A DNA stretch of 35,260 bases, taken from positions 1-35,260 of the IMG/VR virus record IMGVR_UViG_3300031576_000197. One strand, 5' to 3'. The DNA comes from a virus. Below the pieces are notes generated by a model, which worked only from the letters and a program-made list of their open reading frames with translations, did not search any database and had not been told where the DNA came from. Of this stretch, positions 3,693 to 31,175 are shown in pieces (the first letter of the stretch is position 1; every line of letters begins with the position of its first letter). A program made the position numbers and the translations under genes.

Positions 3693-3900
3693 TATCTGTC
3701 ATATACTTGTGGCAAAGATTAACAACTATACTCCACGATGCCGTAGCAATAGGTGTCCATACACCAAAATCAGCATTACCGATAATGCCAGATAAGTACG
3801 TTATAAAGGCTCCAGTCATCGCAATGATTGCGCCCTTGAACACCTTAAGCAGGTCTTGCTGGCTAAGGTTGTACTTCTTTGAACCAGATAATTTTTTCAT
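3667..3900 (-). CDS. Holin-like small membrane protein (77 aa)
   Basis: A lysine-rich N-terminus (MKKLSGSKKYNLSQQD) precedes two hydrophobic segments: KGAIIAMTGAFITYLSGII (about 23-41) and VWTPIATASWSIVVNL (about 48-63). This two-span layout fits small phage holins that let endolysin reach the wall. It lies immediately downstream of the M23 endopeptidase gene (4-bp gap), the usual holin/endolysin pairing, at the end of the late operon. Its 3' end overlaps the convergent gene by 26 bp. Its start is followed upstream by the usual A/T-rich leader. Confidence 0.65.
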   Translation of the reverse strand: MKKLSGSKKYNLSQQDLLKVFKGAIIAMTGAFITYLSGIIGNADFGVWTPIATASWSIVVNLCHKYMTDTTAETPQV

Positions 3901-3904
3901 AGTA

Positions 3905-4393
3905 TTAAGTTATTAAGTCTCCTGACGGGCCAAATCCATACTTACCGTATAGCTCGCGTAAGTACATAATAGGGTCTGTATTCCAACCTTTATAGGTAGC
4001 AAGCGATCTAGCCATTATTCTGTCCAATAGCTTTTCTGGTTTTTTAAAGACGATTATCTCGTAGTGCAGATGAGCTGAAGTTGTCTTTGCCCCACTGTTT
4101 CCTGTAATACCGAGTACCTGATTACGCTTAACCTTTTGCCCTTCTGTGACGTCCACCTGCTTCATATGTGCGAATACGTGAATTGATCCAGAGGCTATAT
4201 CACATAGGTATATAACCTTACCCATCTCTTTCTGTTCGAGTATCTTTACAATTTGGCCAGTAACTGGAGATGGCAACGGTTCAAAGATATAATTCAGATC
4301 GACTCCCGTGTGGCCTTTAATAATATTGTAAAAACCCCGAGGCTTCTTTGACCTATAATGATTCCAGATAACAGCTTCTAATATATGTTTCAT
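3905..4393 (-). CDS. M23-family peptidoglycan endopeptidase, likely endolysin (162 aa)
   Basis: A zinc endopeptidase of the LytM/M23 type that cuts peptide cross-links in the cell wall. Visible ligands and catalytic residues: H28xxxD32 in GHTGVDLNY, H76 in VFAHM, and H108-L-H110 in SAHLHYE. The glycine-containing beta-roll between them (PVTGQIVKIL and GQKVKRNQVLGITGNSG) is typical. No wall-binding domain or signal peptide is present, so export would rely on the adjacent holin-like protein. It could alternatively be virion-associated, as it directly follows structural genes. The C-terminal 40 residues are outside the core. Confidence 0.85.
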   Translation of the reverse strand: MKHILEAVIWNHYRSKKPRGFYNIIKGHTGVDLNYIFEPLPSPVTGQIVKILEQKEMGKVIYLCDIASGSIHVFAHMKQVDVTEGQKVKRNQVLGITGNSGAKTTSAHLHYEIIVFKKPEKLLDRIMARSLATYKGWNTDPIMYLRELYGKYGFGPSGDLIT

Positions 4394-4398
4394 GTGGT

Positions 4399-5328
4399 TT
4401 ATTGAGGGAATAAAACTGTCTCTTTAAATTGTAAGTTTGAAGTCGTTGGCGTGAACGAAGCACCGGGGATACTAGTCTTTCGAAAGAAATCCTCGTACTC
4501 CTGTGCAGATCTCTTGGCGCCAGTGCTGTCATACCTCTGTAGATTAGAGGTAGTTATCTTGTGTTGTTGAACCGCAGCCTCGTATTCTTTCTGGCGTTGT
4601 TCAGCGACTGGAGACCTGCCAAATAAATCCACCGTTTCAGTCCGGTTCGCAAGAGCTTTTTGAGTATCAAGTACACGCTGATAAGCTGAAATATTCTCTT
4701 CCCTCGCCCTCTCATATGGATTGAGTGTCTGCTCTTTAGCAATCTCTGGGTGTTCTTGCAGGTATTTGTTGATGTATTGCTGTGTTCCCCCATACGAAAA
4801 ATACTTTTCTCCACGCTTAGCAGCTTCTGCAATTTGCTGTCCACCAAAGGCCTCTGCTGGATTCCATCTACCCTGATTAACTCCAGCCTGAAACAGTACC
4901 TGCTGGGCGACATAGTTAGGAATACTTAGGACTTGTCCGCCTATATTCACCTTGGCTACGCCACCTTGGACTGATGGATTTTGATTTCCCATAAAGGAAG
5001 TACCAACATTACTAAAACTTACTTCCGGTAAACTAACCGTTTTAGCTGTGTCTATCTGTCCCTCTGGTGTGTAATAGGTTGCAAGGTTGACAGGAGCGAA
5101 TGATTGACTTACACCTTGACGTCCGGTATTTACCTGCTGCTGGTATGCAGCATTCTCTGCCAGCGTGACCGCTGCTGGCTTGGTGTAGGTCGGTGGAGTA
5201 AGGAACGATAGCTTATCGGCGTTCTTCATTACGTCGTTGTATATTGTACTTACCGCCGAAAACGCGTTGGACTTAGTGGGTTCGACCAGAGCTGTATATT
5301 GGGCTGTAATGGTATCTATTGCGCTCAT
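4399..5328 (-). CDS. Putative virion protein (309 aa), near the ejection proteins
   Basis: No enzymatic motif is recognised. The N-terminal third is alanine/serine-rich and helical (MSAIDTITAQYTALVEPTKS), the centre is polar with many Gln and Asn, and a charged helical region follows (YERAREENISAYQRVLDTQK). It starts 1 bp after the 1421-residue protein stops, so the two are coupled. Position and composition suggest an internal or tail-associated protein co-ejected with the genome. A shadow ORF in another frame (4554-4913) was ignored. Confidence 0.6.
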   Translation of the reverse strand: MSAIDTITAQYTALVEPTKSNAFSAVSTIYNDVMKNADKLSFLTPPTYTKPAAVTLAENAAYQQQVNTGRQGVSQSFAPVNLATYYTPEGQIDTAKTVSLPEVSFSNVGTSFMGNQNPSVQGGVAKVNIGGQVLSIPNYVAQQVLFQAGVNQGRWNPAEAFGGQQIAEAAKRGEKYFSYGGTQQYINKYLQEHPEIAKEQTLNPYERAREENISAYQRVLDTQKALANRTETVDLFGRSPVAEQRQKEYEAAVQQHKITTSNLQRYDSTGAKRSAQEYEDFFRKTSIPGASFTPTTSNLQFKETVLFPQ

Positions 5329-5329
5329 G

Positions 5330-8300
5330 TTATTTGGCTGTTATTTCGTCATGCTTCTTTGTAATATACTTCTCGTACTCAGGATAGTCGTCGTATAACT
5401 GATTAAGTCTTTTGTTAGCTCGTTCGGGGTCTATCTGTGCAAGATCATTTAGGGTTGTAATCTCCTGACGTATGGTATTTTGAATCTTACTTTTCCCCTC
5501 TATCTTATCGACCTCGGCATCATATCTATCGTTAATATATTTCTCGTAGGAAGGATATTTATCATACATTTCGTTCAGTATTTTATTGGCTTCTTCCACA
5601 GAAGACCCCGCTACTCTTGCGGCTTCACGCACCTTTTGTCTTATCAAGGTTTGATTCTCGTCTAGATCAAAATCTGGATCCCTGTATTGTTCAGTCTTCT
5701 CAAATTCACCTACCCCTTCTTCCCTTACCTTCACGCCAGTTAAAGCTTCAGTTATAGCGGCTGGAACACTTTCTTCTTTTTCTGCTGCTCTTACGCTTTT
5801 CTGTAACGGTACACCAGCAAGTGGTACAAGCTGTGGCGCCAGATAGGTAAATATATCAGCGAACATATTGCCAGCACCCTCATCTGGGTTGAAGATCTGT
5901 TTGCCAGTAAATGGATTCTGATTCTTGATAAATATATTATATATATCCTGAGCCGGAAACGACGCTAGTCCCGGTACACTTCCCTGTACATACCCGTACA
6001 GCTGGTCTGGCAACATTTCACTTAGCGGTTCTCCTTTTTTCTTCTGGCTTCCCTTAAACATATCAGAGAATGGCGTATAGCTTCCAAAGTCTACCGATAT
6101 CAAGTCACCGTCTTCACTCCTTCCAACTGTAATCTTGCCATCTCTGAATAACCTAGTGTATGCCATTTGTTTCTCCTCGTTAGTCATTGGTAGCGTGCCG
6201 CTTTCTATAAGTGTTGAACCAACTGCAAACGGGATACTAAGCGGCATAGAAGTTTGTAGTGGTTTTTCAATGAAGGATTTTAGTAGTTCTGGATAAACTT
6301 TATATCTCCAAGTCATGAACGGTACGCCAATCAAACTCTGTCTGAATTTCTTTATTAGCGGATTCACGTCTCCATAATCTGGCGTAACCCTTCTAGCTTG
6401 GACCACTGCTGCTTCAGGCGTCAGGCCCTTCTGTCTAAGCTTCTTGTAATTAGCCATCAGGAAAAGATTGTCTCCAAGTTGATACTTGTCACCAAGCCAA
6501 CTATCAAGTGCACGCCATTTGTCTAAAAGCTTATTAGGGGATTTACCAAGTTGTTGCTTCACGATGTCATCAAGAGTTTGCCCAAGTTCTTGTTTAAGAC
6601 CAGTGTCACCTATCTGGCCATAATTCAGTAGTTCGTCATAGAAATCATCCTTGTTTTTTAAGGATTTATAGGCGTCTGATATTTCAACAAATCCACTAGG
6701 ACTGAAGAAATTGTGTCCTAAAATAGATTGAGAAACAGCAAAGTTTGATGCCATATTCCTGACTTGGCCACCTATATTTCTTGACGTAAGATTTCCCTTA
6801 ATGAAATTATTAATGGCATTCATCGTCTTTAGAAATTTACCCGACTTTTGTTTTTCTAGCTCAAGATATTCAAAAACATCTTCCCTAAGATATTTGCCCT
6901 TTAGGGTTCCATACTGGTCAGAGCTTAGTTTTATCCATTTATCAGCTTGATTTGCAGGTATAGTATCTTTCATCGCATCCGTCTCAGAGAGTCTTGCCAG
7001 AAACTCTTGATTCATTCTGGCCTGTTTGAGCTCCAGTAGAGTTCTCGCAACCAAATATTCAGGGTCTTTAATTTCACCCAGAAAATCTCGGATTGCCATG
7101 TCAACCTCTCCCTCGCCCAACTTTCTTTTCTTAAGAAAGTCTCCTTCAGTTTTTATACCGCTTGGCTTTATACCAACTGGAACATCTTTGACATTACCCA
7201 TCAATATATCGGTAATAACTTTTTCAGCCTCTCTACCGTCAAGATTACGCTCTTTTATTAAGGCGTTCTTTAGATGATTATAGCTTTCAGCCAATGGCTG
7301 AAACTCAGGCGACCCATGGACTGAATATAGTCTACGAATATAGCTTCCCATATTCTTAAAATAGACCTCTGGGTCAAGCTTGCCAGCCTGTACTTGTCTT
7401 AGTCCTTCTATGTCTATCTCTCTACGTATGACGTCTAGTGTTTCTTTAACTCCAGGTTCTAATCCTTCAACTTCTTTACCCCTTATATATTCTCCGGCTA
7501 GTTTCTTTTGACTATCATCAAGTTGCTTCAATGGCTCAATGATCTCTTGTATACCAGTCATTTCTCTGGTCTCTGCCCTTTTCTTCTCTGTAATAATTTT
7601 AAAAAGACTATCTTCAATATTTTGTTGTTTTTTAAATGTGTGATTGACACCTTCTTTAAATCCTTTGGGTAACGCATCAATCGCCTTATAAGCAGCCCAT
7701 CTGAGACCTTTTAGTGGCACTGATAAAACCTTATCTAATTGCTCAACAATTGGATTAATAAGACCACGCCTAGCAGGCCCCATGTCTTTTAATATCTCAT
7801 CAGCCTTACTGTATTCACCCTTGGCAATAGATTCCTCAATAGCCTTACGCTTTGTAACTTCTTGTTCCATATCTCTAAGTATTCCAGATCTTGCTCCTAC
7901 GTCTTCACCAAATTCCTTTATTGCAGGGACTCCAGTAACTCCCTGTAAGCTAGTCATTCGCCCCCGCTCCACAAAGCCCTGATCGCGCATTGTTTTGTGT
8001 AGCAATCTCGCTTCGGAAAACAAATCTCTGCCATATAAGTTCCCTACCAGTGAAGTATTAAGAAGCGTATCCTGCACTTCTCGATTGTTAAGTGTTGACC
8101 CCTTAGCTTCCTCAGCCTCTTTTAAAGATGTTTCAAACTTAGACGCAACTTCGGATGGTGATACGTTCTTAAACAATGGTGTTCTTGTCATAATCCTTCC
8201 CAACCCCTCCATTCCTCCTCCTAACAAAATCCCCAAGCCAAAGTCTGCTATACCATATTCTTGTCCAGTCGCCTTCCTAACGCCAGCCTCTACCATCTCT

Positions 8301-29938: not shown

Positions 29939-29986
29939 ATGGAAGCACTAACCAATCTGGGGGTTGGTGCTTTTTTTGAGTTGTGA
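29939..29986 (+). CDS. Leader peptide (15 aa) overlapping a terminator
   Basis: A 15-codon ORF (MEALTNLGVGAFFEL) with a GGGAG Shine-Dalgarno-like sequence (29927-29931) 7 nt before its ATG; most other genes here lack such a sequence. Its codons run straight through the terminator hairpin and U-run. Ribosomes on it would therefore disrupt the hairpin, letting transcription go on into the replication initiator. This would be an attenuation-like leader. The ORF could also be fortuitous. Confidence 0.35.
   Translation: MEALTNLGVGAFFEL
29944..29977 (+). terminator. Intrinsic terminator (plus strand)
   Basis: AGCACTAACC (29944-29953), an 8-nt loop, GGTTGGTGCT (29962-29971), then T7. The stem has 10 bp with one G-U wobble. 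It is upstream of the initiator's own promoter and downstream of a promoter at 29889, so it ends a short RNA of about 55 nt. No plus-strand gene other than the leader ORF precedes it. Confidence 0.8.
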
Positions 29987-30009
29987 ATTATTCAAGATAT
30001 TAGTATACT
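29981..30009 (+). promoter_or_regulatory. Promoter of the replication initiator gene
   Basis: TTGTGA (29981-29986), a 17-bp spacer, then TATACT (30004-30009). Transcription would start near 30016, about 16 nt before the ATG at 30032. The -10 region is part of AGTATACT, a short palindrome similar to those at the other regulated promoters. Confidence 0.6.
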
Positions 30010-30031: not shown

Positions 30032-30844
30032 ATGCCTTCCAACATTAAGATAGCGGTGAGCTCGGAAGGCAGCCGCTATCTTTTTTATTTAAATCTTATG
30101 CTAGACCTCACAGATCATATTATACGCAAAGCGTACTGTCTCAGCCTACACGAGTATGCAGTTCTAATAGAAATCTATTACTTGTCGCACAACAACAAGT
30201 TTGGCGGGTGGTGTATCAAAAGTAAAGACAACATAGCCGAAACGCTTGATATTGGTCGAGATACTGTTTTTAGCGCAATCAAGAAACTCGAAGCAATTGG
30301 ACTAATAGAACGCGGCACCGAGTTAAAGAACACTATAAGAACAACTGATAAATTCAATTCCGTAGTATCTGCTCGTTCTGGATACGCCTTTTCCGTAAAG
30401 ACTGAAGACGAAGAAATTAAAACAGTAGCTCCTGAACATTCCCGACTCACCGTCGGAAAAACCGACGCCCTACCGTCGGAAAAACCGACGCCCACCGTCG
30501 GAAAAACCGACGCTAATATATACATTAAATATATACAAGATAATATATCTTCTAAAGAAGATACTAAAATTAGAACCTATGGGAACCAGGATATCTCTAA
30601 AATGCTTGATGCTCTTAAGCGAACTATAGGGATAGATGCCTTTGCCGATTCCTCTATAGAGAGAAACATTGCAAAGCATTGTGTTACGTTAATGGATAAA
30701 CTCGGCGTAGAAGAATTTCGCCGCCGGCTTGACATAATCCTTGACGATGGTTTTAAGCGGAGAAACTGCAATCGAATCAAGTATGTCTATAACGAGATCA
30801 AGGGATTTATTGACATAAAATCAAATAGCATTAATTCTTACTAG
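30032..30844 (+). CDS. Winged-helix replication initiator-like protein (270 aa)
   Basis: Residues about 38-105 form a winged helix-turn-helix (LHEYAVLIEIYYLS, KSKDNIAETLDIGRDTVFSA, then IGLIERGTELKNTIRTTDKF), the type used by phage O-like and plasmid Rep initiators. A linker of about 140-165 encodes three 18-bp iterons, so the gene contains its own binding sites as lambda O does. The C-terminal 80 residues are helical and basic (DGFKRRNCNRIKYVYNEIKG), possibly a helicase-loader contact region. It probably recruits host replication proteins, as no phage helicase or polymerase is present. First gene of the early arm with its own promoter; a general regulator is an alternative. Confidence 0.65.
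   Translation: MPSNIKIAVSSEGSRYLFYLNLMLDLTDHIIRKAYCLSLHEYAVLIEIYYLSHNNKFGGWCIKSKDNIAETLDIGRDTVFSAIKKLEAIGLIERGTELKNTIRTTDKFNSVVSARSGYAFSVKTEDEEIKTVAPEHSRLTVGKTDALPSEKPTPTVGKTDANIYIKYIQDNISSKEDTKIRTYGNQDISKMLDALKRTIGIDAFADSSIERNIAKHCVTLMDKLGVEEFRRRLDIILDDGFKRRNCNRIKYVYNEIKGFIDIKSNSINSY
30450..30512. repeat. Three 18-bp palindromic iterons, likely replication origin
   Basis: Three identical copies of CCGTCGGAAAAACCGACG at 30450-30467, 30473-30490 and 30495-30512, with 23- and 22-bp spacing (about two helical turns). Each is an inverted repeat (CGTCGG/CCGACG) with an A5 centre. Copies 1 and 3 are read as TVGKTD, copy 2 in another frame as PSEKPT, so the identity is conserved at the DNA level, not the protein level. 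An AT-rich stretch follows immediately (30514-30580), as in lambda ori where O iterons lie next to an AT-rich region. They are likely the binding sites of the initiator in whose gene they lie. Confidence 0.75.
30514..30580. other. AT-rich DNA-unwinding candidate next to the iterons
   Basis: Directly 3' of iteron 3, with runs such as TAATATATACATTAAATATA and a small inverted repeat ATCTTC-TAAA-GAAGAT near 30547-30562. In origins of the lambda and plasmid iteron types, an AT-rich region beside the iterons melts first. The stretch is also coding (YIKYIQDNISSKEDTKI), which uses AT-rich codons. Confidence 0.5.
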
Positions 30845-30845
30845 T

Positions 30846-31175
30846 ATGACAAAAGCAATACAACAATACGAGCCACAGCTTCTTATTGAGCTAAAATGTG
30901 GACGCAAGCTAATAACAGCAAAGAAGCACGAAGAGGCTATCTTACGCGACATCGACAGCAAAAGATTCATACGAATTGAAGGGGTAACCGTCAATGTCCT
31001 AGAAATTAAAACCATTGAAGCAATGGGAGGGGAATACGACATTCTTATGGGGTTAACAGAGGATCAACGCAACAAAGCGTTAACTAGATTCAAGCAATAC
31101 GAACTCAATACAGGTAACAAACCGTCCACCGAGTGGCGCTCAAAATGGATACAAACAAACATTCTTAAAACTTAA
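30846..31175 (+). CDS. Hypothetical protein (109 aa) after the initiator
   Basis: MTKAIQQYEPQLLIELKCGR then a beta-strand/helix mix (KRFIRIEGVTVNVLEIKTIE), a helical region LTEDQRNKALTRFKQYELNT and a short basic end. No known domain is recognised. It starts 1 bp after the initiator gene stops, so the two are coupled; a helicase-loader-like partner of the initiator is a speculative possibility. No ATPase motif is visible. Confidence 0.55.
   Translation: MTKAIQQYEPQLLIELKCGRKLITAKKHEEAILRDIDSKRFIRIEGVTVNVLEIKTIEAMGGEYDILMGLTEDQRNKALTRFKQYELNTGNKPSTEWRSKWIQTNILKT

Follow-up and report, generated by a model that had tools for sequence, protein, structure and literature searches.

In all likelihood, the window (the whole 35,260-nt stretch of viral DNA analysed here) carries the replication origin of a tailed phage inside the gene for its own initiator. 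Three copies of ACCGTCGGAAAAACCGACGC, identical over 20 bp in all three, lie in the middle of a winged-helix initiator gene, starting at 30449, 30472 and 30494 (start-to-start distances of 23 and 22 bp). Judging from the sequence, the initiator very probably binds these iterons within its own gene. The origin would be of the same kind as lambda O/ori and pSK41-type repA/ori, with a protein that stands outside the Pfam families Phage_rep_O and RepA_N. The features of the region are as follows.

29981–30009, + strand: weakly supported sigma-70-like promoter match, TTGTGA-17-TATACT, ahead of the initiator
30033–30086, + strand: leader with a terminator-like hairpin, its loop GGAAGGC complementary to GCCTTCC 5' of the stem
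30098–30844, + strand: replication initiator gene, 248 aa, with HTH_36 and PHROG matches
30098–30370, + strand: predicted N-terminal winged-helix DNA-binding domain, residues 1 to about 91 (from the predicted model)
30377–30550, + strand: iteron-carrying low-confidence linker, residues 94–151 (pLDDT under 50)
30449–30468, + strand: iteron 1
30472–30491, + strand: iteron 2, in a reading frame other than that of copies 1 and 3
30494–30513, + strand: iteron 3
30512–30581, no strand: AT-rich stretch, candidate DNA unwinding element
30578–30841, + strand: C-terminal helical domain, common to two phage contigs with other N-terminal domains
30846–31175, + strand: small downstream gene, function not assigned

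A preliminary description of this DNA had reported three identical 18-bp palindromic iterons at 23/22-bp spacing. Copy number and spacing held, but the identical run extends over 20 nt in all three copies (22 nt between copies 1 and 2), and the perfect palindrome of each iteron measures 17 bp, with two 6-bp arms flanking AAAAA. The 18-mer, found at 30450, 30473 and 30495, has no other copy in the window even with 3 mismatches allowed (0.01 expected by chance). Copies 1 and 3 are read in the same frame and copy 2 in another; identity is thus kept across reading frames, which argues that these linker codons act mainly as DNA. The earlier proposal of selection on DNA was borne out when the protein was synonymously recoded 5000 times, as the longest triple repeat reached 9 nt compared with the 20 observed across two frames. 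In a stricter test, in which the gene's own codons were shuffled and a repeat counted only if its spacing was not a multiple of 3, the initiator gene gave p = 0.002, and the lowest value among 13 other window genes was 0.013. The AT-rich stretch that had been described after the iterons is also there: positions 30512–30581 are 80% AT, a value matched by only 0.15% of the window's 70-mers. As at lambda-type origins, direct repeats about 20–24 bp apart are found within the initiator gene, with an AT-rich stretch of putative unwinding function beside them.

For the initiator, a start at ATG 30098 is more likely than one at the upstream in-frame ATG 30032, because the latter is placed in the hairpin leader. 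The protein matched HTH_36 (PF13730) with an E-value of 2e-5 and 24.7 bits, just below the Pfam curated cut-off of 25, and among PHROG families it matched a DnaD-like helicase loader (E 2.7e-9), a replication initiation protein (8.5e-9) and an O-like family (1.1e-7). No match was obtained to the Phage_rep_O (PF04492) or RepA_N (PF06970) profiles, or by tblastn of the initiator against 50,697 phage records. A predicted model (m9267901eded3) contains a winged helix, with blocks of residues 1–90 at pLDDT 62–86. Fold matches of this N-terminal domain were generic winged helices, the DnaD N-terminal domain (Z 8.8) standing level with MarR-type regulators; RepA_N N-terminal domain (NTD) structures were absent from the best 50 fold matches listed, which excludes nothing. 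PDB sequence searches with the initiator and with sets A3 and A5 returned generic winged helices only, or nothing credible. The C-terminal domain showed no convincing match to any known family, and its model (pLDDT 61) was too poor for a fold search.

We gathered relatives of the N-terminal domain by the protein and its alignments, not by DNA, and obtained eight further distinct ones; L122 is the same contig as L045, which was first met in a DNA pattern search, and the others were not chosen by DNA. In 9/9 distinct relatives, window included, iterons lay at 0.41–0.52 of gene length, with repeat significance of p 0.001–0.018 in each. The arms differed from gene to gene and were near-uniform inside each gene: TCTCGG-AAAAT-CCGAGA in L122, ACTGCC-AAAAT-GGCAGT in L125, AGTCTAAAATTTAGACT in L123 with near-relatives of that sequence in L153 and L156, CAGTACAG-T/A-TTCTGTACT in L157, and GGTGCAAAATTTGCA in L160 with a related imperfect form in L126. 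Such change between genes combined with agreement within genes is what coevolution of each set of sites with its own binding protein would produce. The suggestion that homologous initiators would keep the iterons therefore holds in a refined form, with place and spacing retained and arms specific to each gene. Among the relatives inspected by eye, an AT-rich run comes after the iterons. Repeated peptides encoded by a gene make the per-gene shuffle test conservative; L126 gave p 0.45 with in-frame spacings allowed and p 0.002 with them removed. The window's 18-mer also occurs as single copies in two other phage initiator genes (L005 and L007). A further match, in L006, looks like chance and lies inside a gene that, from a reading of its sequence, we take to be an RNA-phage replicase.

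A natural domain swap bears on which part of the protein the sites follow. The C-terminal 82–88 residues recur in L004 (66% identity) and L148 (65%), with an overall range of 65–70%, and the N-terminal domains of the three proteins are unrelated in sequence. That of L004 is DUF1376-like, consistent with a single DUF1376 match in the Pfam scan, and that of L148 is Lin1244-like by inspection. Neither gene contains TCGG iterons; in L004 no repeat reached significance, and the repeats of L148 are its own CAACAAGTGTTGAACA, in frame at a spacing of 21 bp. Because these genes share the C-terminal domain yet lack TCGG iterons, the sites follow the DNA-binding domain, as expected if that domain binds them. 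The same kind of exchange has been described for plasmid pPR9 versus pSK41 (PMC5703833). The small gene downstream of the window's initiator has a relative downstream in L148 (36% identity) and a weak resemblance in L004 (26%).

The sites might instead be operators at which the initiator protein would repress its operon. Winged helices are commonly repressors, the best fold matches here are MarR-like regulators, and tandem TCGG-W5-CCGA pairs do occur in non-coding, promoter-like phage stretches, mostly at 28–30 bp (L016, L028 and L062). However, the window's sites are found within the coding sequence, about 350 bp past the start of the gene; the PHROG families that the protein matches are those of helicase loaders and replication initiators; in two relatives the initiator is immediately followed by a gene for a DnaB-type helicase; and the known proteins of this layout are initiators. 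We therefore consider operators in place of an origin very unlikely; autoregulation on top of origin function is possible.

Binding by another host or phage factor, with the placement in this gene due to chance, is less likely again. Iteron binding by the initiator is itself a prediction, which leaves room for such a factor, but all nine genes with this N-terminal domain carry iterons, and the two genes related to the window's in the C-terminal domain alone lack the TCGG type. Hardly credible, finally, is the view that the repeat is maintained for the peptide it encodes (VGKTDA / SEKPT), or that it expanded without any function. TVGKTDA does appear twice in the linker, but copy 2, in another frame, encodes a different peptide, the 20-nt identity is never approached under synonymous recoding, the relatives' iterons at the same place encode other peptides, and the model gives the encoded region very low confidence, which would suit a disordered linker.

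An origin within the initiator gene has known counterparts. Lambda has four iterons (TCCCTC-AAAAC-GAGGGA) at spacings of 20, 24 and 23 bp in gene O, with an AT-rich tract next to them. The preliminary comparison with lambda O is upheld in its order of parts: an N-terminal DNA-binding domain, iterons with a GC arm, A tract and GC arm, an AT-rich stretch and a C-terminal domain. In both, iterons with an A-rich centre between two arms occur every 20–24 bp along the linker-encoding portion of the initiator gene, followed by the AT-rich tract. By contrast, the iteron sequence and the copy number (four versus the window's three) differ, the window protein has no PF04492 match, the C-terminal domains are not recognisably related, and a P-like loader gene was not found in the window.

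Further counterparts are staphylococcal RepA_N initiators of the pSK41/pWBG749 type, which likewise combine a winged helix with mid-gene palindromic iterons that have a central A tract and a period of about 22–23 bp. The pSK41 boxes (GTGTC-AAAAG-GACAC) lie about 22–23 bp apart in mid-repA, and pWBG749-type iterons have the core GTCGGAAAAACCGA in common with the window. When the 79-bp iteron block was searched blind among plasmids with blastn, the top-ranking records (E 4e-3 to 0.2) were without exception staphylococcal replication initiator A genes, which carry GTCGGAAAAACCGA iterons at about 22–23 bp. These systems differ from the window in being plasmids rather than phages and in their C-terminal domain, and the window protein lacks a PF06970 match. 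The NTD of pSK41 Rep, a winged helix, is reported to be the part that binds such boxes, and the RepA_N C-terminal domain to interact with DnaG (PMC5703833); RepA_N iterons are described elsewhere as semi-palindromic, with the repeats converging toward a poly-A tract (PMC7145576). The pPR9 replicon, whose Rep has a phage-like NTD of pfam13730, is reported to replicate autonomously (PMC5703833). Like the window protein, a pPR9-type chimera joins an HTH_36-type domain to a foreign C-terminal domain, a likeness in domain make-up taken from the published description (PMC5703833). We considered whether the staphylococcal blastn matches were themselves chimeras of this type and dropped the idea, as the N-terminal half of L008 matches solved RepA NTD structures.

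Next, we asked how general the TCGG core is, searching for TCGG-W5-CCGA twice within 5–20 bp, with two arm sets of the same composition as controls. The pair occurred at 63 viral loci, compared with 9 and 3 for the control sets, and the viral spacings peaked at 23. A PHROG replication initiation family was matched by 23/37 proteins, 31 of the 37 coming from the viral pattern search. Among GTDB genomes the pattern was found at 37 loci, with a spacing of 23 (33 times) or 22 (7 times). The 24 open reading frames (ORFs) scanned, 23 of them from GTDB loci, comprised 18 RepA_N, 3 Phage_rep_O and 3 HTH_36 proteins. When Phage_rep_O genes were picked by family, significant repeats in mid-gene or linker were present in 4/8 loci (L138, L140, L142 and L145; p 0.002–0.004), but only one of these four has the TCGG core, and the family-picked genes mostly use other arms. 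Since the search itself selects the core and Phage_rep_O genes mostly use other arms, the TCGG core is best described as frequent, not universal.

Some pattern matches are clearly not origins but non-coding, operator-like pairs at 28–30 bp. In L016, L028, L042, L062, L011, L058, L070 and L072, TTCGG-W5-CCGAA pairs stand at 28–29 bp, usually where there is no long ORF and beside promoter-like sequence; these are probably repressor operators rather than origins. In L027 (4958–6142, minus strand), an iteron-bearing initiator apparently matches DnaA_N (PF11638), the DnaA helicase-interaction domain, and so appears to be a winged-helix initiator fused to DnaA domain I.

As had been noted, no helicase is visible: DnaB_C matches were absent from the records of the window, L004 and L148 (the window record is possibly incomplete), and Pfam scans of the window genes searched showed neither helicase nor primase. 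In L122 and L125, a DnaB-type helicase gene overlaps the end of the initiator, and in L123 a PriCT_1 primase gene lies there. The helicase frame behind the L122 initiator (3783–5534) has one internal TAG, which could mean that the gene is broken, that the stop is recoded or that the sequence contains an error. Within this small sample, the type of C-terminal domain goes with the presence or absence of a phage helicase. The GC skew of the window turns near 33 kb, with no turn at 30.5 kb, and the AT skew flips at about 30 kb, where gene direction also flips.

The N-terminal winged helix would bind the three iterons, probably as one dimer per palindrome, and, by analogy with lambda O and pSK41 RepA, the distance of about two helical turns between iterons would align the bound proteins and strain the AT-rich neighbour until it opens. 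The C-terminal domain may then recruit a helicase or primase, presumably a host protein. The helicase would most likely be the host's, because the record yielded no DnaB-type helicase; replication proteins could also lie outside it.

More broadly, the winged helix and linker iterons may be a single cassette with its own specificity, which phages and plasmids combine by exchange with one or another C-terminal recruiting domain, and a common iteron code (TCGG, five A/T, CCGA, about 22–23 bp) may be used repeatedly by initiators from three Pfam families, in phages, prophages and plasmids whose hosts are distant from one another; we consider this idea about as probable as its contrary. If true, cassette exchange would change origin specificity in a single recombination and leave the recruiting domain unchanged. 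For uncultured phages, an origin would become readable, as repeated 17-mer palindromes in a winged-helix gene would mark both initiator and origin from sequence. The recognition code also becomes testable, because arm sequence and DNA-binding domain change together across relatives. Records with versus without a phage helicase point to two ways of engaging the replisome.

Upstream of the initiator, the hairpin leader could be a kissing-loop attenuator (terminator) of initiator expression. The same topology, with other sequences, precedes the initiators of L122, L125, L126, L123, L153, L156 and L157, with loop complementarity of 7–9 nt to a segment or hairpin loop farther 5'. It recurs in L004 (4325–4365) before the first small gene of an operon; in L160 it is not visible by eye, and L148 has a hairpin without clear loop pairing. 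A four-sequence alignment showed compensatory changes in the stems and in the loop–loop pairing, mostly between two sequence groups. No Rfam family matched the leader at the gathering threshold, and the best weak match, SQ2397 (E 1.5, 16 bits versus 100), was not accepted. Promoter-like sites in the region numbered 6, compared with 2.9 expected. A second terminator-like hairpin (29941–29976) precedes the putative promoter at 29981, within the divergent intergenic region. At the contig start, from position 10 to about 300 of the window, a short tandem repeat encodes GNAGSAW-type repeats ahead of a DUF6745 domain.
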